Part shown: positions 52,469 to 64,000 of the stretch, in pieces
Position numbering within the stretch: the first letter of the stretch is position 1
How the letters are laid out: each line of letters starts with the position of its first letter
From: Bacteroidota bacterium
Lineage (GTDB): Bacteria; Bacteroidota; Bacteroidia; Bacteroidales; F082
Length of the DNA stretch: 64,000 nt
Assembly: GCA_009773165.1 (NCBI GenBank)
Contig: WOUZ01000004.1
Span: 62,001 to 126,000 of the forward strand
Direction of reading: 5' to 3'
Notes under the pieces: generated by a model
The model's database searches: none
Told to the model about the DNA's origin: nothing
What the model saw: only the letters and a program-made list of their open reading frames with translations
Position numbers and translations under genes: made by a program

Positions 52469-53932
52469 CTACTTCCCAATTGAGCTGCCTACTTTATTCA
52501 TTGCACATCTGAAACCGATGGTACTTGATGCCTCATCTTCGTTAAGAAAACGACGTACACCAGGACTCATAAAGTAAGCTCTGTCGGCCCATGAACCACC
52601 TTTGAATACTCTTGCCTTATCTGAGATAAGGGTTGTTTCGCCATAATCATACATCTTTGCGGTAGAATTTGGATCTTCAGTTAAGTTCGACCAATCATTC
52701 TGAATGGTAGAAGAATAATCACCATCACGATAGTTAACTGCATTGCCTCTGCGGTAATTCTTACGGTTTGCTGCTTCTTCAGGAGTTATTTCAACATATT
52801 GCAACCTTCCTAATGAGTCTTTCTGTGCAATTGACCCATCAAGTTCGCGTTTTTTGTTTACAAAAATATTACCACGGAAAGGGCTGTAATCAGCAACATC
52901 TTCAAATGAAAGTGGACGATAAACATCCAAAACCCATTCAGCGACGTTACCACCCATATTATACAATCCATAATCATTTGGCCAATAAGAACCTACAGGA
53001 GCAGGAAGTGCAGCACCATCGTTCAAACTACCCGCAACACCCATATAGTCACCTTGTCCGCGTTTAAAGTTGGCAACAAAGCTTCCCATATATTTTTTAT
53101 GGTCTGTGCGCAGCCCATCACCGTTCCAAGGATATTTTCTTCCCTCAACAACACGTTCGTTGATCGTATTTCCAACAAGACCTATTGCTGCATATTCCCA
53201 TTCTGCTTCTGTGGGAAGGCGATATTTTGGAAGCATGATACCATCTTCAAAACGAACGTTGCGAATTCCTGATCCACTTGGGTCAAGATCTGCTTTTCCG
53301 TCTTTCACAAGTCCTTCATACTGACCAGCTAAATATGCTTCGGTATTGAAATTATTTTCATTTTTCTGATCAGGGTCAAAATCCAGAATTCCTGCTTCAA
53401 TAAGCAGCAATTCATTTACGCGGTCGGTTCTCCAGTTTGCATAGTCATTGGCTTGCAACCATGATACACCTACGACAGGATAATCCTGATAAGAAGGGTG
53501 ACGAAAATATAACTCAACCAAAGGCTCATTATATGAAAGACGGTCACGCCAAACAAGAGAATCAGGTAATGCCCGCTGAACCACCATAGGGTAATCTTGA
53601 CCATAAACACGGTTTAACCAATAGCTGTATTCGAGGTAATCCAGGTTACTGACTTCTGTTTCGTCCATGTAAAAAGAGGCAACAGTAACACGTCTGGGGA
53701 TATTATTCCACTCAAACATTAAATCTTCCTGGGTTGCTCCCATCAGAAAAGTTCCGCCTTCGATGGCTACTAATCCCGGACCAACATTTTGCTCTTTGCT
53801 TTGAGCCACTTCAAAACCTCCGGCTTTCGGATCATTATAGTTCCAACCTGTTGTGCGTGAGGCTTGTTTTTGGCAGGAGGTAAAAAGAAGTCCTGCGATG
53901 AACATCGTGAGAATGATGTGCGTTTTTTTCAT
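52469..53932 (-). CDS. gldJ: GldJ-like T9SS / gliding lipoprotein
   Basis: A 487-residue lipoprotein with signal MKKTHIILTMFIAGLLFTSC (Cys20). The rest is a formylglycine-generating-enzyme-like (SUMF1) fold: GPGLVAIEGGTFLMGATQEDLMFEWNN, FYMDETEVSNLDYLEYSYWL, YPVVGVSWLQANDYANWRTDRVNE, YRLPTEAEWEYAA, YNMGGNVAEWVLDVYRP and VFKGGSWADRAYFMSPGVRRF. The order and details are those of GldJ of Flavobacterium johnsoniae, a periplasm-facing lipoprotein needed for T9SS function and gliding, rather than GldK/PorK. Catalytic activity is not known for these proteins. It follows the porP-like gene by 45 bases; murF is next but beyond a terminator. ATG at 53932. Confidence 0.92.
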   Translation of the reverse strand: MKKTHIILTMFIAGLLFTSCQKQASRTTGWNYNDPKAGGFEVAQSKEQNVGPGLVAIEGGTFLMGATQEDLMFEWNNIPRRVTVASFYMDETEVSNLDYLEYSYWLNRVYGQDYPMVVQRALPDSLVWRDRLSYNEPLVELYFRHPSYQDYPVVGVSWLQANDYANWRTDRVNELLLIEAGILDFDPDQKNENNFNTEAYLAGQYEGLVKDGKADLDPSGSGIRNVRFEDGIMLPKYRLPTEAEWEYAAIGLVGNTINERVVEGRKYPWNGDGLRTDHKKYMGSFVANFKRGQGDYMGVAGSLNDGAALPAPVGSYWPNDYGLYNMGGNVAEWVLDVYRPLSFEDVADYSPFRGNIFVNKKRELDGSIAQKDSLGRLQYVEITPEEAANRKNYRRGNAVNYRDGDYSSTIQNDWSNLTEDPNSTAKMYDYGETTLISDKARVFKGGSWADRAYFMSPGVRRFLNEDEASSTIGFRCAMNKVGSSIGK

Positions 53933-53977
53933 TTGTATCAATATTGTCTTCTAACGTTCAAAATTTAAAGCTACTAA

Positions 53978-54979
53978 CTAAAAAGAGGGTGATTTTATTG
54001 TACGTACGGTTCTTTTTGGGTAGGTATAAACACAAAAATCCCATCCGAACGATATTTCATGTGCTCCCCCACTCTTTCCTGAAAGCTTTGACACCGTGTA
54101 ATCATAACTGTAGCCAATTCGATAATTGTTCCATTGCAGTCCTAAAAGGACAGCGACAGCATCTGCGTTATTAGGAGTATGACGATACCAAAGACCAGTC
54201 ACAAAAGGTGCTTTACCTAAATATACGCCCATATTGAGCTGACTAAAATTATGTTGCTGCAAAAATAGTAGATTTGGTTGAATCAATAGGTCTCCTTGTT
54301 GAACTTCTCCAAAACTTCCTGTACTTGCATTGAAATTTAAACCAGCATGAGCCGTGTAACGCAAATGCAATTGCTCGGCATTATCTTCATAAAACGACAT
54401 TTGAGGCTGACTCAGATGATCGGCACTGACACCGACAAAAAATTTATCGCTATATCCATATGCAAGTCCGGCAGCAAAATCTGCAGTGTAAATAGTTGGT
54501 TCTGATGGAGATGTCTCCATAGTTTGGAGGTCAGCAACCCCGGTAGACGAATTAATCATATCTGCAAAAACAAGATTATTCCAATCAATGCTCTCCTGAT
54601 AAAATGCCGCTTTAACACCAAAATGAACAAACGATTGAGCAGTAATCTGCAGTTTATACGAATATAATCCCGCAGCAAGTGTTCGGTTGTATGCTCCGCT
54701 AGCCTGTTGATCACGCACAACCATGAATCCAAAACCGCTATTAATTGTGGCCAGGTTTTGGTCGTAAGCAATGCTGTAAGTGACATATGCTTTGTTAAGA
54801 GAAGGCCATTGGTTGCGAAAATTCAAGTTCAGCCGACCGCATTCTGTATTACCGGCCAATGCAGGATTCAGATACATTGGATTGGCATAAAACTGTGAAA
54901 ATGAGGCATCCTGAGCTTTCATTGAGAAAGTCAGAAACCATAATAAAAGCACAATTAATAACCGATTTATTGAGATCAT
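53978..54979 (-). CDS. PorP/SprF family T9SS outer-membrane protein
   Basis: A 333-residue outer-membrane protein with signal sequence LLIVLLLWFLTFSMKAQ. The mature start DASFSQFYANPMYLNPALAG is the hallmark of PorP/SprF proteins, followed by beta-barrel strands such as GRLNLNFRNQWP and GFGFMVVRDQQASGAYNRTLAAGLYSY, and an aromatic C terminus region. PorP serves the core secretion system, while SprF paralogues anchor particular cargo; sequence alone does not decide which it is. No cargo gene with a CTD adjoins, and gldJ lies downstream, which slightly favours a role in the machinery. ATG at 54979. Confidence 0.88.
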   Translation of the reverse strand: MISINRLLIVLLLWFLTFSMKAQDASFSQFYANPMYLNPALAGNTECGRLNLNFRNQWPSLNKAYVTYSIAYDQNLATINSGFGFMVVRDQQASGAYNRTLAAGLYSYKLQITAQSFVHFGVKAAFYQESIDWNNLVFADMINSSTGVADLQTMETSPSEPTIYTADFAAGLAYGYSDKFFVGVSADHLSQPQMSFYEDNAEQLHLRYTAHAGLNFNASTGSFGEVQQGDLLIQPNLLFLQQHNFSQLNMGVYLGKAPFVTGLWYRHTPNNADAVAVLLGLQWNNYRIGYSYDYTVSKLSGKSGGAHEISFGWDFCVYTYPKRTVRTIKSPSF

Positions 54980-55419: not shown

Positions 55420-58400
55420 ATGTACCGCTCTCTACTCTTTCTTTTGGTTGTAATCGCCAGCATTTCGCTAAAGTCGCAGCAGCTGTTTGATTCAAAATAT
55501 GTTGATATTAAATGGGTTTCAATATCTGATTCCACGCTCTCTTTTAATGAATCCAACAGAATGATCTTTAAAGATGCTCATTTCATGTCCGAAGATGAAA
55601 TTTTACCCTTTTATATCGATCATCTGAATTTATTCGACAAAACGCTGACGATTACAGCACGGCTTTCAGAATTAGTAGTATCTCCTGTTGAATCTTTTGA
55701 ATTGGAAGCTTTTTCGGGCATTAATCTTCCAACTGATTTTATTCCGGAAACTGCAATACTTTCGGGTCGCGATGAAGCATTTGCTAAAACAACTATTCCT
55801 ACCTTAAGGAGAAATCAACAAACAGGTGAAATTGAACGACTTGAATCTTTCAAAATCGATTATCACTACGAAATGAAACCATCTGAAAAAGATGGTATTG
55901 CTGGTTTTGCAACTACTTCGGTACTCGCTTCAGGAGAATGGTTCAAATTTCGTCTGAATAAAAGCGGTGTGTACAAAATATCTTTCTCTGATTTACAGGC
56001 TATTGGGATTAATCCATCATCTGTCAATCCTAAAAACATTCGCATTTATGGTAATGGTGGTGGCACATTACCCGAAAACAACTCTGCTTCACGGTATGAT
56101 GATTTGTTTGAAAATCCAATTAAGATTGTAGGTGAAGAAGACGGTGTTTTCAATCAGAACGACTACATTTTATTTTACGGACAAGGCCCAGTCGTTTGGG
56201 ATTACGACCCGGTGGATGGATTTTTCGTTCATCGTCCCAACTATTATGATGATTACACCTATTATTATGTCACTGCGAGTTTGGGTGAAGGAAAGCGCAT
56301 GCCCGAAAGTCAGGTTCAGCAAACCAGCAACGCTACGATAACCTCATTTGTTGATTATCAATTATATGAGCAGGATTTAGTTAACCTTTCAAATACAGGT
56401 CGAACATGGTATGGCGATCTTTTTGATGTTACCCTTAGTAAGGATTTCGAGTTTGACTTTCCGAATATTGATCAAAGTCGTCAAGGAAAATTGGTTACAC
56501 AAGTAGCAGCACGTTCATTTGGATCATCCAATTTTCAACTTTCATTAAATGGTTCACTTCAACAAACAATTCCGGTTGATGCTACTCAAGCTACAGGTTA
56601 TGACTGGGCAAAAGGTAACTCCGGAATTCAACGCTTTACCCCATCATCTGACAAAACAACTGTTGGAATTAAATATAACAGAGCCCTCAATTCCGCAAGA
56701 GGGTGGCTTGATTATATCAGTTTAAATGTCTGGAGACAGCTAAAATTTACAGGCTCACAGATGCACTTTAACAACACACAACTCACTGGCGAAGATTCTT
56801 TTGTTACGATGGAGCTTGCCAATGCAAGCACATCTGTTGAAATATGGGATGTAACAGAAGCAGTGAACCCGGTCAGGATTTTGCCATCAGTTCAGGCATC
56901 AACGCTACGCTTTATTATAACCGGAAGCGAGATAAGGCAATTTATCGCTTTTGATCAAAGCAGTTTTTTTAGTGTTGAAAAAATAGGTGCAGTCGCAAAT
57001 CAGAACCTCCATAGTTTGAGAGATATTGACTACTTAATCATCGCCCACCCTGATTTCGTTGAACAAGCGGAGCAATTGGCTGAAATACACCGTACCCAAA
57101 GCGGGTTAGATGTTTTTGTCACAGTTCCATCTCTCATTTATAATGAATTTTCATCCGGAGCACAAGATGTTACTGCAATCAGAGATTTTGCCAGAATGCT
57201 ATATTCCAGCAGTTCACCCGGACGGGAACTGAGGTACATGCTACTTTTTGGTGATGCATCATTCGATTATAAGGATAGGATTTCGGGCAACACGAATTTT
57301 GTGCCCACCTACGAAGCTGTTGCATCACTCAATCTTGTCAACTCCATTGCAACAGATGATTATTACGGCTACCTCGATACCAATGAAGGTACCGGAGCAA
57401 ATAGCCTCCTCGACATTGGAATTGGAAGGTTCCCTGTTGCGACAGCCACCGAAGCACAACAAATTGTTGATAAAATTATCAGGTATCTAAGCGACGATGA
57501 AGACGTTATGAGCCCATGGCGAAATGAAATTACTTTCGTTTCTGATGATGGCGACTCCAACACGCACCTCAATGATGCTGAAACTATTGTTACATTACTA
57601 CGCAATGATTATCCCGATTTTAACCTCGACAAAATCCACCTTGATGCCTACAAGCAAGTAGCAACACCAAGTGGCCAAAAAGCACCTGAGGTTAATGAAG
57701 CCATAAATAAGCGTGTTGAAAGAGGAAGTCTTATTATAAATTATTCAGGTCATGGTGGCGAAGTTGGCTGGACTGAGGAGCGTATTCTTCAAATCGCTGA
57801 TATCACTTCGTGGCGTAACAGAAACAAATTACCGGTTTTCATTACAGCTACCTGTGAGTTTTCACGCTATGACGATGCTGAGAGAACTTCTGCCGGTGAG
57901 ATGGTTTTTCTTAATCCTTTCGGTGGTGCAATAGCCATGTTCACAACAGCGCGAGCTACCTATTCCACTACAAACCTTAGGCTCAACAAGGCGATTTTTA
58001 ACGATAATATTTTCACGAAAATTAATGGTCAATATCCACGATTCGGTGATGTCATCCGTAAATCAAAACTTACTGGAGATGCTAACGACCGAAAATTTGT
58101 ACTTCTTGGAGATCCTGCCCTTCAGATAAGTTTTCCAAAAGAAAAGGTTATAACAACTCATATCAACGGCAACCCAGTTAACATGGTTTCTGATACCTTA
58201 AAAGCTCTTGATGAGGTTACTGTATCAGGTATCATTGCAGACAGAAACGAAATACAACTCACTAATTTTAATGGTGTTTTGTATGCTACAGTTTATGATA
58301 AAGAAGCTCAGGTTAATACCTATGGAGACCAGGGCCCAACAACAAGTTTCCTGTTACGTAACAGCATCATCCATAAAAGTACGGTTGAAGTTGTCAATGG

Positions 58401-59214
58401 CCACTTTGAATTCAGGTTTATGATTCCCAAAGACATCGCCTATAAATATGGCTCTGGTCGTATAAGTTATTATGCTACTGATTACCAAACAGATGCACAA
58501 GGCAATTTTGAAGATTTCTATGTTGGTGGTTTCAGTAACAATGTTGTTGATGATCAGGCAGGGCCAAATATAAAGCTTTATATAGGCGATACAACCTTTG
58601 TAAGCGGAGGTTTTACTGATGAGAATCCAAGTTTGCTTGCATTACTTGCAGATGAAAATGGTATTAACACAACAGGCTCAGGAATCGGGCACGATCTTGT
58701 TGCAACATTGACAGGAGCTTCAGAGAGATATGCTATCATTAATGAATTTTATACCGGAAAACTTAATGCAACCGCAGAAGGATCAGTCGTTTATCCTTTT
58801 GCAAATCTGAATCCAGGAAAGCATACGCTTACTCTTAAAGCATGGGATATTTTAAACAATTCAAATACAGCAACAATCGAATTTGAAGTAATCCTCAGCA
58901 ATAATATTCGTGTTGAAAATCTGATGAATTATCCGAACCCATTTCATCAAACCACCTCTTTTGTATTCGACCATAATCAATCATCCGATCCACTTGATGT
59001 AGAAATTTCCATTTATAATACCAGTGGGATGCTAATTAAGACGATAATTTCGGAAAATCATTACAGTAACGGATACCGAAGCCAGCCAATTCATTGGAAT
59101 GGATTATCAGATCAAGGTAATCCTGTCGCAAAAGGTTTGTATATTTACCGCCTCGTTGTGACAAATTCCCAGGGAGTGCAAACAGATAAAAGAGCTAAGT
59201 TATTATATTATTGA
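55420..59214 (+). CDS. porU: PorU-like T9SS C-terminal signal peptidase (sortase)
   Basis: A 1264-residue exported protein of the gingipain (C25) clan. A signal sequence, YRSLLFLLVVIASISLKSQ, is followed by an N-terminal region of about 180 residues, then GEWFKFRLNKSGVYKISFSDL, typical of PorU. The C25 domain spans about 540-900: ISGNTNFVPTYEAV, IGIGRFPVAT, NYSGHGGEVGW (His778) and ITATCEFSRYD (Cys812), 34 residues apart, form the dyad. A T9SS-type C-terminal domain with NYPNPFHQTTSFVFDH and GLYIYRLVV ends the protein. In P. gingivalis PorU removes the CTD of cargo and links cargo to anionic LPS. It is followed 8 bases later by a paralogue. Confidence 0.93.
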   Translation: MYRSLLFLLVVIASISLKSQQLFDSKYVDIKWVSISDSTLSFNESNRMIFKDAHFMSEDEILPFYIDHLNLFDKTLTITARLSELVVSPVESFELEAFSGINLPTDFIPETAILSGRDEAFAKTTIPTLRRNQQTGEIERLESFKIDYHYEMKPSEKDGIAGFATTSVLASGEWFKFRLNKSGVYKISFSDLQAIGINPSSVNPKNIRIYGNGGGTLPENNSASRYDDLFENPIKIVGEEDGVFNQNDYILFYGQGPVVWDYDPVDGFFVHRPNYYDDYTYYYVTASLGEGKRMPESQVQQTSNATITSFVDYQLYEQDLVNLSNTGRTWYGDLFDVTLSKDFEFDFPNIDQSRQGKLVTQVAARSFGSSNFQLSLNGSLQQTIPVDATQATGYDWAKGNSGIQRFTPSSDKTTVGIKYNRALNSARGWLDYISLNVWRQLKFTGSQMHFNNTQLTGEDSFVTMELANASTSVEIWDVTEAVNPVRILPSVQASTLRFIITGSEIRQFIAFDQSSFFSVEKIGAVANQNLHSLRDIDYLIIAHPDFVEQAEQLAEIHRTQSGLDVFVTVPSLIYNEFSSGAQDVTAIRDFARMLYSSSSPGRELRYMLLFGDASFDYKDRISGNTNFVPTYEAVASLNLVNSIATDDYYGYLDTNEGTGANSLLDIGIGRFPVATATEAQQIVDKIIRYLSDDEDVMSPWRNEITFVSDDGDSNTHLNDAETIVTLLRNDYPDFNLDKIHLDAYKQVATPSGQKAPEVNEAINKRVERGSLIINYSGHGGEVGWTEERILQIADITSWRNRNKLPVFITATCEFSRYDDAERTSAGEMVFLNPFGGAIAMFTTARATYSTTNLRLNKAIFNDNIFTKINGQYPRFGDVIRKSKLTGDANDRKFVLLGDPALQISFPKEKVITTHINGNPVNMVSDTLKALDEVTVSGIIADRNEIQLTNFNGVLYATVYDKEAQVNTYGDQGPTTSFLLRNSIIHKSTVEVVNGHFEFRFMIPKDIAYKYGSGRISYYATDYQTDAQGNFEDFYVGGFSNNVVDDQAGPNIKLYIGDTTFVSGGFTDENPSLLALLADENGINTTGSGIGHDLVATLTGASERYAIINEFYTGKLNATAEGSVVYPFANLNPGKHTLTLKAWDILNNSNTATIEFEVILSNNIRVENLMNYPNPFHQTTSFVFDHNQSSDPLDVEISIYNTSGMLIKTIISENHYSNGYRSQPIHWNGLSDQGNPVAKGLYIYRLVVTNSQGVQTDKRAKLLYY

Positions 59215-59221
59215 CACTTAC

Positions 59222-62200
59222 ATGTTAAACAAGTTTACTGATAATCGGTTTACTTTCAGGAATAAGGCTTTGGGGATTTCCCTGATTCTTTTAGTTTTTG
59301 TGCATGCTCCATTTTTGGTTTTGGCTCAGACTAAAAAAGTTGAAATACAATCAGACAGTTCTTCATTCAATCGTGGCAACGATCCTTCAGTTTATACTGA
59401 TAATTCAGTACTAAACGAAGGAACATGGATCAAACTTGGTATTACAGAAACAGGAATATATAAACTCACCTACAGCGACTTACAACAATATGGTCTGCAA
59501 CCATCAGCCATCGATCCTAGAAATTTAGCCATTTATGGCAACGGAGGTTCTATGTTACCCGAATTAAATAGTGCATTCAGGTATGATGATCTTTTTGAAA
59601 ATGCTGTTTTAGTTGTTGGTGAGGAGGATGGCGTATTCAATGAAAATGATGTGCTTTTGTTTTATGCCTTAAATACCGTTAATTGGAAATGGCAAAACAA
59701 CCGCTTCATTCATGAAATCAATTATTATTCTGATACGAATTTCTACTTTTTGACAGTTAAAAACGATGTTGGAAAACGTATTCAACAACAAACTCAACCT
59801 TCCGCAGAACCTCTTCGCGAGACAGAATATTTTCTTGACTATCAACACCATGAAAATGATCTGGAAAATTTAATATTGAGTGGTAAAGAATGGTTTGGTG
59901 AAGAAATGTCGAAAAGCCATCCTGAATTACAGTTTTCGTTTCAGTTTCCTAACCGTGTTACCAACCGACCTGTGCGATTCGAAATTGATATTGCAGGAAG
60001 AAGTATAACAGAGACATTTAATTTTTCGGTTTCATCCAATGGTCAAATAATAGTTAACCCTCTTCCCTTTCAGCAATTATCAATTGGAAATTCAACACAT
60101 GCCAGAGAAGTTTATCAAAACTTAACCTTCAACTCCGAAGATGATAATTTCACTTTTGCCATAACTATTGATGCTGAAAATGATAATTCAGAGGCATGGC
60201 TGAATTTTATCCGTATCAACACTTGGAGAAAACTTATTTATGAAGGTACTCAGCTACAGTTCAGTAACCCTGATCTTACGATGGAAAATGGTATCGGACG
60301 TTATAAACTCAGTGGTATTCCCGAACAGGTTTATTTATGGGACATTACTGAACCACTACTTCCAAAATCACAAGAGTACATACTGAATGGCAATCAGCTG
60401 GAATTCAAAGCCTTTTCTGATACTTTACGGCATTTTATTGCATTTGAAGCATCCAACGCTTTTTCAGTTGAAAATTTCAAGGTTATTTCAAATCAAAATC
60501 TTCATGCTATCACCAGCTGTGATATGCTGATAGTTGCACATCCTGATTTCATTGCCCAGGCAGAGGAGCTTGCCGGTGTGCATTATACCGATGATGGGTT
60601 ACAGAGTATAGTGGTCAATATCAATGACATTTACAACGAATTTGGAAGTGGTAAAGCTGATATCTCGGCCATACGCGATTTTGTACGTATGGTTTATCTG
60701 AAAAGCAACCAACAGCTCAAATACCTGCTTCTTTTTGGTGACGGTTCCTATGATTACAAGAACAGAATTCCAAATAACACCAATTTTATTTCAACATATC
60801 AGGCGAGCGGGTCTCTCGTTGAAACACAAAGTTTTGTAAGCGACGATTATTTTGGCCTGCTCGATCAAATTGAAGGACTCGAAATGTTTGGAATACTCGA
60901 CATTGGTATCGGACGTTTTCCGGTAAGCACTAAAGAAGATGCGCAGGTAATGGTCGAAAAAGTAAAAAGTTACTTACTTGCTGGCGCTGAGCAAAATGGT
61001 GAATGGCGTAACAACATAACTTTTATGGCTGATGACGCTGACAGCAACCTGCATTTTAATCAAGCCGAAACCTTGTCGCAGGATGTAGACACTGCCTTTG
61101 CAAATTTGAATATCAGAAAAATCTATCTCGATAGCTACAAACGCACAGTTGTTCCCGGAGGATATCGCTATCCAGATGCCAATAATTCCATTTTATCACA
61201 AATAGAAGAAGGTTCACTGATAGTCAATTACACGGGTCACGGTGGAATTACCGGGCTATCCGACGAGAAAGTATTTACAATAGGCGAGATAGAAAATCTG
61301 AGCAACCACAACAAATTGCCTTTTTTTATTACAGCAACATGTGAGTTTAGCCGCTTCGACAATCCCGGCTTTGTTTCAGCCGGAGAGCGATTGTTATTGA
61401 ATCCTACAGGTGGAGCAATTGCACTTATGACAACTACACGTCTTGCTTTTGCTCACTCAAACTTTGCTGTTAACAGAAGAGTTTATGACGCCATGTTTGA
61501 GAATAACCGACAACAAATCAGACGTTTAGGCGATATCATCAGGATGAGCAAGAACCCCACAAGTACATATATCTATAATTTTGTCTTACTGGGTGATCCC
61601 GCTTTACGGCTTGCATATCCCAAATATAAAGTTGAAGTGACAGAGTTCAATGGTACATCACCTTCTTTAACAGATACACTTGGAGCAATGTCAGAGGTAG
61701 TTTTAAAAGGTCAAATCGTTGATCAAAACGAACAACTTGTGAGTGATTTCAATGGGTATCTTTATCCAAAAATGTTCGACAAGAAATCGAAATTTAAAAC
61801 CCTTGCTAATGATGGCGCAAGTCTTGCTGCATTTTTCTCCTACTTCGAAAAGCTGATATACAAAGGAAAAGTAAGTGTCAAAGAAGGCCAGTTTGAACTC
61901 AGGTACATGATTCCAAAAGATATTGCCTATCAATTTGGACAAGCTAAGTTGAGTTTCTACGCTGTTGACACGACAAATTATAGTGATGCAGGTGGCTATT
62001 TCAACGAGCTTGTTGTTGGTGGCTTTGATGATACAGTAAATCAGGATCAAAACGGACCAGAAATAGAGATGTATATTAATGAACCTGGATTCAAGAATGG
62101 CGACTACAGCTCTCCCAATCCTGTAGTTTTTATCCAATTAAATGATCCTCAAGGGATTCATTTTTTAGGGAATAGCATTGGTCGTGATATTGTACTTACC

Positions 62201-62716
62201 TATGAAGGTACTGAAAGCAAACAATACCAATTGAATCATTATTTTGAGACCTCACTTGACGCTTTCGACCAAGGTACCATCAGATTTAATTTACATGACT
62301 TAGCAGCTGGAAGCCACCGTCTGAATTTGAAAGCCTGGGACCTGCACAACAACTCTTCTGAATTCGAGATATGGTTTAAAGTAGATCAAACCGCTTCCAT
62401 AGCAATAACTGAACTTTCAAACCGTCCCAATCCATTTTCATCATCTACTGAGTTTGTATTTCAGCATAATAAACCCGACCAGCCGCTGAAAGTAACTATT
62501 GATATTTTCAATCAAATGGGAGGCAGGGTAACCCAATTCACCCGTGAAACACAAAGTTCCGGCGTTTTATCATCTCCAATCAAATGGGATGGAACCCGCT
62601 CAGATGGAAGTAAATTACCTGCCGGATTATATGTATACAATGTACAAATTGAAGATGAAGGAGGGAATGTGTTTAATGCCAGCCAACGTTTGATCATTCT
62701 GCCACTTAAAGAATAA
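59222..62716 (+). CDS. Second PorU-like C25 protease (tandem paralogue)
   Basis: A 1164-residue paralogue of the preceding protein, about 100 residues shorter mainly at the N terminus. A signal sequence (LGISLILLVFVHAPFLVLAQ) is followed soon by EGTWIKLGITETGIYKLTYSDLQ, parallel to the first protein. The dyad is intact: NYTGHGGITGL (His673) and ITATCEFSRFD (Cys707), with the same 34-residue spacing. It ends with NRPNPFSSSTEFVFQH and GLYVYNVQI, again a T9SS CTD. It should be active. With porU 8 bases upstream and porV 26 bases or more downstream, all three are probably one operon. Whether it serves other cargo, the same cargo, or backs up PorU is unknown. Confidence 0.9.
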   Translation: MLNKFTDNRFTFRNKALGISLILLVFVHAPFLVLAQTKKVEIQSDSSSFNRGNDPSVYTDNSVLNEGTWIKLGITETGIYKLTYSDLQQYGLQPSAIDPRNLAIYGNGGSMLPELNSAFRYDDLFENAVLVVGEEDGVFNENDVLLFYALNTVNWKWQNNRFIHEINYYSDTNFYFLTVKNDVGKRIQQQTQPSAEPLRETEYFLDYQHHENDLENLILSGKEWFGEEMSKSHPELQFSFQFPNRVTNRPVRFEIDIAGRSITETFNFSVSSNGQIIVNPLPFQQLSIGNSTHAREVYQNLTFNSEDDNFTFAITIDAENDNSEAWLNFIRINTWRKLIYEGTQLQFSNPDLTMENGIGRYKLSGIPEQVYLWDITEPLLPKSQEYILNGNQLEFKAFSDTLRHFIAFEASNAFSVENFKVISNQNLHAITSCDMLIVAHPDFIAQAEELAGVHYTDDGLQSIVVNINDIYNEFGSGKADISAIRDFVRMVYLKSNQQLKYLLLFGDGSYDYKNRIPNNTNFISTYQASGSLVETQSFVSDDYFGLLDQIEGLEMFGILDIGIGRFPVSTKEDAQVMVEKVKSYLLAGAEQNGEWRNNITFMADDADSNLHFNQAETLSQDVDTAFANLNIRKIYLDSYKRTVVPGGYRYPDANNSILSQIEEGSLIVNYTGHGGITGLSDEKVFTIGEIENLSNHNKLPFFITATCEFSRFDNPGFVSAGERLLLNPTGGAIALMTTTRLAFAHSNFAVNRRVYDAMFENNRQQIRRLGDIIRMSKNPTSTYIYNFVLLGDPALRLAYPKYKVEVTEFNGTSPSLTDTLGAMSEVVLKGQIVDQNEQLVSDFNGYLYPKMFDKKSKFKTLANDGASLAAFFSYFEKLIYKGKVSVKEGQFELRYMIPKDIAYQFGQAKLSFYAVDTTNYSDAGGYFNELVVGGFDDTVNQDQNGPEIEMYINEPGFKNGDYSSPNPVVFIQLNDPQGIHFLGNSIGRDIVLTYEGTESKQYQLNHYFETSLDAFDQGTIRFNLHDLAAGSHRLNLKAWDLHNNSSEFEIWFKVDQTASIAITELSNRPNPFSSSTEFVFQHNKPDQPLKVTIDIFNQMGGRVTQFTRETQSSGVLSSPIKWDGTRSDGSKLPAGLYVYNVQIEDEGGNVFNASQRLIILPLKE

Positions 62717-62790
62717 TTTTGTTTCCGACAATAAAATATAACATGAATCGTTTAGCAACAATATCAAATCACAACATCACGCACGTAAAT

Positions 62791-64000
62791 ATGAAGTTAA
62801 AAGTAACATTCCTAGCAGTTCTTACAGTTATAACCACCTTGGTTCAGGCGCAAACCTATCAGGAACTTTCAGGACGCAACACACTCAATGTCATTACCAC
62901 AGCTGTTCCATTTTTGATGATCGCACCGGATGCAAGAGCTGGATCAATGGGAGATGTTGGCGTTTCGTCATCTCCAGATGTATATTCAATGCATTGGAAT
63001 CCAGCTAAATACGCTGTAATGGAAAGCGATATGAGCGTTGGATTATCCTATAGCCCTTGGCTAAGAAACCTGGTTCCTGATATGAACCTGGCTTATCTTG
63101 CTTTTGCAAAACGTATTGATAATAATTCTTCTATTGGTGCAACTTTGAGATTTTTCACTTTGGGTGATATACAATTCACCGATAAAGATGGAATTGATCA
63201 AGGAACATATCGTCCCAGCGAATGGGCTTTGGATGCTACCTACTCCAGAAAATTAACTGATAACCTTTCAGGTGCCGTTGCAGGAAGGTTTATTTATTCG
63301 AACCTTACACTCGGACAAAATGTTGGCGGAGCATCTACTTCGGCAGGGATTTCAGCTGCTGCTGACGTTGCTGTTTACTGGGAAAAAGAAGTGGTTTGGT
63401 TTAGTGGTATTGATTCAAAATTTGCCTGGGGTATTAACATTTCAAATATCGGGACAAAACTGGGTTATAGTTCAGCTAGTATCAAAAAAGACTTCATTCC
63501 TACCAATTTACGTTTTGGACCTACCTTGAAACTTGCCATAGATGATTATAATGAGATTGCTTTCTCCATTGATGTAAACAAATTACTCGTTCCTACCCCT
63601 CCTATTTATAAGCGTGACTCCATCACAGGAAATCCTATCCCAATACCAGGTTCTGATAAATACGAAATCCTGGATGGATTGGATGATGATGTTTCTGTTG
63701 TTGCCGGAGTACTTCAATCCTTCTATGATTCACCAGGTGGTTTTGAAGAAGAAATGCGCGAACTAAGTGTCTCATTTGGAGCTGAATATTGGTATAACAA
63801 GGTTTTCGCGCTAAGAGGTGGTGCTTTTTACGAAGATGCTACTAAAGGAAACCGCAAATTCTTCACCTTAGGTGCAGGTTTACGTTACAATGTTTTTGGA
63901 CTTGATTTCTCCTATTTAATCCCGATTGATTCACGTAACAACCCTCTGCAGAATACATTACGCTTTGCCCTGACTTTCGATTTAGATAATGTAGGAAAAG
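62791..64000 (+). CDS. porV: PorV (LptO) T9SS outer-membrane shuttle protein, 3' end missing
   Basis: An open frame runs from the ATG at 62791 past the window edge, so only the first 403 residues are seen. The signal MKLKVTFLAVLTVITTLVQAQ precedes NVITTAVPFLMIAPDARAGSMGDVGVSSSPDVYSMHWNPAKYA, the diagnostic start of PorV. Barrel strands such as LAYLAFAKRIDNNSSIGATLRFF and a long extracellular loop with RDSITGNPIP follow. PorV collects cargo from the SprA translocon and passes it to PorU. An in-frame ATG at 62743 would add 16 residues ahead of the signal and is less likely. Confidence 0.92.
   Translation, partial: MKLKVTFLAVLTVITTLVQAQTYQELSGRNTLNVITTAVPFLMIAPDARAGSMGDVGVSSSPDVYSMHWNPAKYAVMESDMSVGLSYSPWLRNLVPDMNLAYLAFAKRIDNNSSIGATLRFFTLGDIQFTDKDGIDQGTYRPSEWALDATYSRKLTDNLSGAVAGRFIYSNLTLGQNVGGASTSAGISAAADVAVYWEKEVVWFSGIDSKFAWGINISNIGTKLGYSSASIKKDFIPTNLRFGPTLKLAIDDYNEIAFSIDVNKLLVPTPPIYKRDSITGNPIPIPGSDKYEILDGLDDDVSVVAGVLQSFYDSPGGFEEEMRELSVSFGAEYWYNKVFALRGGAFYEDATKGNRKFFTLGAGLRYNVFGLDFSYLIPIDSRNNPLQNTLRFALTFDLDNVGK

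Follow-up and report, generated by a model that had tools for sequence, protein, structure and literature searches.

The gingipains are proteases specific for arginine or lysine, and their C25 type of catalytic domain is also found in PorU, the sortase of the type IX secretion system (T9SS). In Porphyromonas gingivalis, PorV carries type A cargo to PorU, PorQ and PorZ; PorU cuts off the C-terminal sorting domain (CTD), after which the cargo is either joined to a glycan delivered by PorZ or released (passages on PorU in PMC10202324). The same passages state that the choice of PorU between attachment and release is unsolved. Here, we describe a 64,000-nucleotide stretch of a Bacteroidales genome (contig WOUZ01000004.1; G000:C29:62001-126000 in our coordinates, within a genome of 4.38 Mb), below called the window, in which two PorU genes, A and B, lie head to tail in front of porV. 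We tentatively propose that A and B both work as sortases of the same T9SS, arose by an old tandem duplication, are kept by purifying selection and differ in the cargo junction they prefer. Judged from sequence comparison, this proposal has somewhat less than an even chance of being right.

The products of A (1264 amino acids) and B (1164 amino acids) are identical at 448 of 1099 positions (41%, BLASTP). Both exceed the cut-off of 420 bits for NF033707 (T9SS sortase PorU) by far and cover the model almost completely (positions 1-1093 of 1095 in A, 1-1095 in B). Both contain a Pfam Peptidase_C25 domain (358.3 bits in A, 350.1 bits in B) with its His/Cys dyad, as is typical of PorU, and they lie beside porV in a genome that has PorZ and type A cargo. 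An N-terminal stretch resembling a signal peptide was read by eye in each. The model for the type A CTD, TIGR04183 (cut-off 23), is matched above cut-off by A; the match of B falls below it by hmmscan and, at 22.9 bits, in the genome search, and rises above it when the in-frame neighbours are included (Table 1). A preliminary description of the window had reported a tandem pair of PorU-like sortases before porV, with the dyads His778/Cys812 and His673/Cys707. This holds true, and the two dyads occupy the same alignment columns. The genes are indeed adjacent, but the "8 bases" given there are the difference between coordinates: from the TGA stop of A to the ATG of B there are 7 bases (59215-59221). 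Membership of B in the named family NCBIfam NF052324 (putative PorU2) was considered and rejected, as B scores 199.7 and A 170.6 bits against a cut-off of 450; among eight PorU relatives, seven scored 137-203 bits and the eighth, L016, 231 bits.

How widely such pairs occur was followed through the order. In f1, the family of the window, a whole-genome search with NF033707, counted by hand, revealed the tandem in 22 of 25 genomes; the remaining three comprise G002, with one match on a short contig, and the single-copy genomes G010 and G021. The tandem set within the order consists of 56 genomes or loci: the window, five named loci and members of 19 family codes. It provides 56 A and 57 B rows, one genome having two B copies. 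Since the genomes were fetched mostly because two matches were listed, these 56 pairs do not represent a frequency; L100 and L101, fetched as possible pairs, turned out to have one PorU each in the fetched stretch. The complete arrangement, with gldJ and porP pointing away from two PorU genes that are followed by porV, is present in 33 of the 56. For the other 23, one of which has three PorUs, one or more flanking matches are absent from the fetched stretch. Copies were labelled A or B by gene position and not by tree, except for the tandem pair of L102 (f31), which, once the FastTree analysis was done, was counted among the other PorU rows. That comparison group also includes pairs from other families of the class and is therefore not purely single-copy. 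The set omits overlapping loci (L001-L008 and L017-L045), open reading frames (ORFs) below 600 amino acids and six rows that repeat named loci exactly.

The FastTree phylogeny of 186 rows groups the upstream copies with single-copy PorUs and places the downstream copies of the order's pairs outside, except for L102. The B copies lie, in several pieces, outside a 123-row group of A and single copies, which is a long-branch pattern. Three rows (L055_2of2, L105_2of2 and L069_2of2) are weakly placed and are absent from the mixture-model sets. Under the LG+C20 mixture model, all 18 chosen B rows, representing 13 family codes, form one clade with a support of 99, and the 18 A rows form another together with three single-copy rows (90). 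In a second mixture-model set of 37 rows with Ignavibacteriae as outgroup, the order is a clade (93), within which A, B and two single-copy rows group together (87), with A supported at 90 and B at 99 (8 rows each). The approximately unbiased test did not reject (p-AU 0.189) a topology in which A unites with the single and f122 copies, and B falls with the outgroup. On the basis of these trees, the simplest and best-supported history would be that porU duplicated once within the order, before the 13 families diverged, and that B was later lost in a few cases. L067 (= G010), L068 (= G021) and L113 (= G281) are single-copy rows nested within the A clade. Two old clades, a possibility already considered in the preliminary description, are thus recovered in the mixture-model trees.

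Neither copy shows visible decay, in line with the earlier impression from the window alone. The dyad is complete in every A row and in 67 of 67 other PorU rows; among the B rows it is incomplete only in a fragment truncated where its contig stops. Neither this comparison nor any of the column counts includes L015 and L016. Among 67 columns that are near-invariant in A and the other PorUs, 65 are the same in more than 90% of the B rows, including all 34 of those within the C25 domain; L105_2of2 contributes to the dyad count and was excluded from the near-invariant and separating columns. In two close pairs, the ratio of non-synonymous to synonymous substitution (dN/dS, Nei-Gojobori) was 0.071 and 0.078 between the A copies, and 0.109 and 0.086 between the B copies. 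When the window genes are compared with the nearest relative, synonymous sites are saturated and yield no dN/dS value. In view of the trees, the dyad counts and the dN/dS values, we reject a recent duplication and the decay of one copy.

The N terminus does not distinguish the two lineages. The preliminary description rightly noted that B is about 100 residues shorter here, as it is without the long-form domain: A matches the long-form model NF052318 below its cut-off of 40 (Table 1) and B does not match at all. This shortness does not belong to a division of labour: the domain is filled in 47 of 57 B rows and in 51 of 56 A rows, and the B copy of locus L104 reaches 57.3 bits. One of the ten B rows without the domain is a fragment cut by a contig end and the others occur in f1, f72, f94 and f96. 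As the absence is confined to several lineages, the state of the window's B is a local, repeated loss.

Only two of 1194 alignment columns separate A from B fully. For this comparison, six rows near the split (L067, L068, L113, L111, L114 and L121) were removed, leaving 61 other PorU rows. At the first column (A847/B742), Thr is present in 56 of 56 A rows and Ala or Ser in all B rows but one (Table 1); the lone Val belongs to L055, a row weakly placed in FastTree. The other PorUs have V53 A6 I1 T1. The second column (A892/B786) has Lys or Arg in A and Asn or His in B, the other PorUs being mostly N44 K10. The third-best column, A846/B741, is directly adjacent to A847, with A39 P12 L5 in A and Leu in 52 of 56 B rows. 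A single consistent A/B indel was found, a column at A888. The A-nested single-copy rows L067, L068 and L113 all have Thr at column 847, as expected if those lineages lost B, and L111, L114 and L121 have Ser. Swapping the labels within 54 genomes gave a maximum separation of 0.41 in 100 draws, versus 1.00 observed. This control tells that the A/B split is real; it does not show a functional meaning.

In a profile of 23 catalytic domains, column 847/742 aligns with Gln282 of the Arg-specific protease RgpB (chain 1cvr; specificity according to the part of PMC4357240 that deals with it). In RgpB the P1 arginine is touched by Gln282 and Trp284, the latter of which also lies over the S1 pocket (structural passages of PMC4357240 and PMC9559808). 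By alignment to RgpB, the best lineage marker would thus adjoin the pocket that reads the residue at the cut. Since the sharpest difference between A and B lies in the loop aligned with the RgpB S1 pocket, it points to a difference in the junction (P1) residue.

According to our proposal, PorV would deliver type A cargo to either A or B. Each would cut the CTD via its Cys/His dyad, and the cut cargo would then go to the PorZ-delivered glycan or be released. The differing S1-pocket loop would give the two a different preferred residue at the cut, and each would mainly handle its own share of the type A cargo, which comprises some 130 proteins. Relative to the residues most common in the other PorUs, the change would be to a new state in A (Val to Thr and Asn to Lys) and to a smaller side chain in B (Val replaced by Ala or Ser). 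We consider it possible, if rather doubtful, that the two PorUs go further and read different P1 residues such that the roughly 130 type A proteins are sorted into two fates by their junction residue. If this were true, cargo of one kind might, for instance, be anchored and the other released, or the two might be joined to different glycan anchors; no such T9SS sorting code was found in the open-access literature searched.

Several observations weigh against our proposal of two sortases with different junction preferences. B appears to have been lost in L067, L068 and L113, so that it would be dispensable in some members of the A clade. The tandem pair of L102 belongs to the order but falls outside both lineages in FastTree. 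(This pair may stem from another duplication or be of mixed origin.) The register to RgpB is certain to about one residue only, since a second chain, 4ief, aligns shifted by one. The separating columns show fixed, conserved differences and not a function: a single change at the base of each clade, inherited afterwards, suffices, and since related sequences have that change by common descent, the counts reflect conservation after the split rather than repeated independent change. Mean identity among B copies is lower than among A copies in each of five regions, most of all in the immunoglobulin-like and CTD parts, and such faster evolution of B also fits a mild relaxation. Finally, some single-copy genomes have very many CTD candidates.

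These CTD counts bear on the unlikely alternative that A and B have the same function and that two are kept since the cells secrete many type A proteins. We compared 80 genomes chosen from the listings of profile searches: 38 tandem genomes, checked in fetched sequence, and 42 single-PorU genomes, taken from the listings, for which two PorU candidates per genome were scored. With matches limited to 62 per genome, the counts are of first-look CTD candidates (142 in the window's genome, 150 without this limit, versus 135 matches). Candidates are more numerous in the tandem genomes (median 179, none below 74) than in the single-PorU genomes (median 77, 20 below 74; p = 3.5e-5 uncorrected, and p = 0.0012 with one value per family, 18 versus 39). 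Two single-copy members of the A clade likewise have few (G010 48, G281 32), whereas the third, G021, has 107, and single-copy genomes reach 441. With phylogenetic correction only 4 independent pairs are left, for which the sign test is not significant. Moreover, fixed differences in the S1 loop would be unexpected between equal enzymes.

The preliminary description had also raised a division of labour by CTD class. Two old, intact lineages are indeed present and, from the alignments, a division as such is plausible, but the CTD-class version is unlikely: the window's genome has 133 type A CTDs over cut-off (of 135 matches, two score lower; the PorU pair itself accounts for two of the 133) and 5 of type B, and secretion of type B cargo in Flavobacterium johnsoniae is reported to be independent of PorU and PorV (the part of PMC9143113 on type B cargo).

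A regulatory pair, in which A and B form a heterodimer, one blocks the other and the changes in the S1 loop tune the blocked partner, seems to us distinctly improbable. The P. gingivalis PorU homodimer is reported to be inhibited by a beta-hairpin that reaches from one partner into the active site of the other (passages on the dimer in PMC10202324). Genes 7 bases apart could also yield their products in similar amounts, and one of the fully separating columns lies, with its neighbour, within the S1 loop. Yet both dyads are retained, which a pure inhibitor would not need.

We give still less weight, as a quite remote option, to the idea that both enzymes cut at the same site and differ in the second step, one attaching cargo to glycan and the other releasing it or using another glycan. 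This would speak to the attachment-or-release choice that is stated to be unsolved for PorU, and it would suit the polysaccharide cluster with an ATP-binding cassette (ABC) exporter within the window and the presence of PorZ throughout the genomes searched. The N-domain of PorZ exceeds its cut-off in 80 of 80 genomes, that of the window included; its equal presence in tandem and single-copy genomes, where no second delivery module was seen, speaks against a second-step split, as does the mapped separating column, which is near S1 and not clearly on the acceptor side. PorZ presence was also tried as a correlate of the pair and discarded for lack of contrast.

PorU genes have been duplicated elsewhere as well. 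Like the A/B pair, the tandems of f122 and f153 have two PorU genes before porV. These and other duplicates (the tandems of f122/g205, f153 and f31, and dispersed pairs) are separate from the A/B split in FastTree, and the tandem copies of f122, f153 and f31 have Val at column 847, as do all ten copies of f122/g205. The f122/g205 tandem (L126, L128-L131) belongs to a different family of the class; there, the copy next to porV clusters with PorUs from single loci, and the one upstream has diverged. The pair of L133 (f153) looks recent, the copies being sisters in the tree, and lies beside three porV-like ORFs. In L089 (f111), three PorU genes follow one another, of which the two downstream ones are sisters. 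Two PorU matches are also listed in G151, G233 and G295 (f25) and in G044, G148, G230 and G292 (f21), some of which may be split genes. A third PorU-like protein of about 880-1000 amino acids was found in three f1 genomes and one of f14, without a porV match in the fetched stretch. The His is kept in all four; the catalytic Cys is replaced (Gly, Ser, Gly, gap), and a type A CTD exceeds the cut-off in two of the three scanned. Judging from these residues, the protein looks like a secreted pseudo-enzyme. With Thr at the S1 column in three of four, it may perhaps derive from the A lineage.

Upstream of A, gldJ and a porP-like gene are encoded in divergent orientation. Downstream of B, porV has a first ATG at 62743 and another in-frame ATG at 62791, and the matching place in the genome scores 406 bits with PorV_fam NF033709. 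Two further PorV-family barrels over cut-off are encoded elsewhere in this genome (G000:C32:187004-187948 and G000:C1:186891-187835) and are possible additional shuttles. The polysaccharide cluster occupies positions 3286-25991 of the window on the minus strand. It includes several glycosyltransferases, an epimerase, an ABC protein with Wzt_C, a GDP-mannose 4,6-dehydratase (580.5 bits, cut-off 415) and a Wzm-like permease (65 bits against a cut-off of 380). This cluster could make the surface glycan that accepts cargo. Scans of the window with Rfam and for tRNAs gave no matches, and promoter and terminator scans gave the same counts as in shuffled sequence.

Table 1. Features of the PorU locus (positions in the window) and loci of the third PorU-like protein (positions in the named locus).
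Feature	Position	Strand	Evidence
PorU copy A, with N-terminal extension, upstream lineage	55420..59214	+	NF033707 1320.4 bits; A clade
Long-form N-terminal domain of A, residues ~20-160, limits drawn by hand	55477..55899	+	NF052318 34.6 bits
C25 catalytic domain of A, residues 538-902	57031..58125	+	Pfam PF01364
Catalytic His778 of A	57751..57753	+	His in 56/56 A rows
Catalytic Cys812 of A	57853..57855	+	Cys in 56/56 A rows
Ala846-Thr847 of A, S1-loop lineage markers	57955..57960	+	aligned with RgpB 281-282 (1cvr)
Lys892 of A, second A/B-separating column	58093..58095	+	K54 R1, 1 gap, n=56
C-terminal type A sorting domain of A	58930..59184	+	TIGR04183 24.0 bits
PorU copy B, porV-proximal, short form	59222..62716	+	NF033707 1240.8 bits; B clade 99
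C25 catalytic domain of B, residues 435-797	60524..61612	+	Pfam PF01364
Catalytic His673 of B	61238..61240	+	His in 56/57 B rows
Catalytic Cys707 of B	61340..61342	+	Cys in 56/57 B rows
Leu741-Ala742 of B, S1-loop positions	61442..61447	+	742 = A50 S5 V1, 56 rows
Asn786 of B	61577..61579	+	N53 H2, 1 gap, n=56
Weakly scoring type A CTD of B	62426..62656	+	TIGR04183 19.9 bits; 24.8 with in-frame neighbours
porV, cargo shuttle, runs past window end	62743..64000	+	PorV_fam NF033709
porP/sprF-like gene, divergent	53978..54979	-	TIGR03519 236.5 bits
gldJ, divergent	52469..53941	-	TIGR03524 463.9 bits, cut-off 458.2
Third PorU-like protein, L146	4715..7705	-	
Third PorU-like protein, L147	638..3604	+	
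Third PorU-like protein, L148	5950..8931	+	
Third PorU-like protein, L149	90..2717	-	

No description of a PorU pair was found in the open-access literature, which was mostly screened at title level, and the word PorU2 is absent from the open-access literature searched. A paper on T9SS phylogeny (PMC7323717) describes no duplicate PorU in its passages on PorU and on copies, nor does "duplicat" occur in it, and the "two PorU" wording in the relevant passage of PMC11285876 refers to mutants, not paralogues. Under the single name PorU, as given by NF033707, two old lineages are merged.

Among known proteins, PorU2 (NF052324) has a distant similarity to the N-terminal and catalytic part of A and B, far below its cut-off. 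The catalytic domain can be aligned with those of the C25 gingipains RgpB (57.9 bits to 1cvr) and Kgp (31 bits to its chains). By hand reading of two alignments of uncertain register, the position of RgpB Asp163 is Leu or Thr in B; with no acidic residue at this place, Arg specificity of B is not expected. The best solved relative is PorU of P. gingivalis (PDB 6za2), which aligns over nearly the whole chain, dyad included (E 1.9e-151 for A, 1.4e-139 for B), and has Val at column 847. This PorU is treated as a single protein in the passages of PMC10202324 that concern it, whereas here there are two paralogues with differing S1 loops, kept over many families and differing at few named positions, one of them near the active site by alignment. 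For the question of anchoring versus release, which the same passages leave open, such a naturally kept pair gives a direct test.

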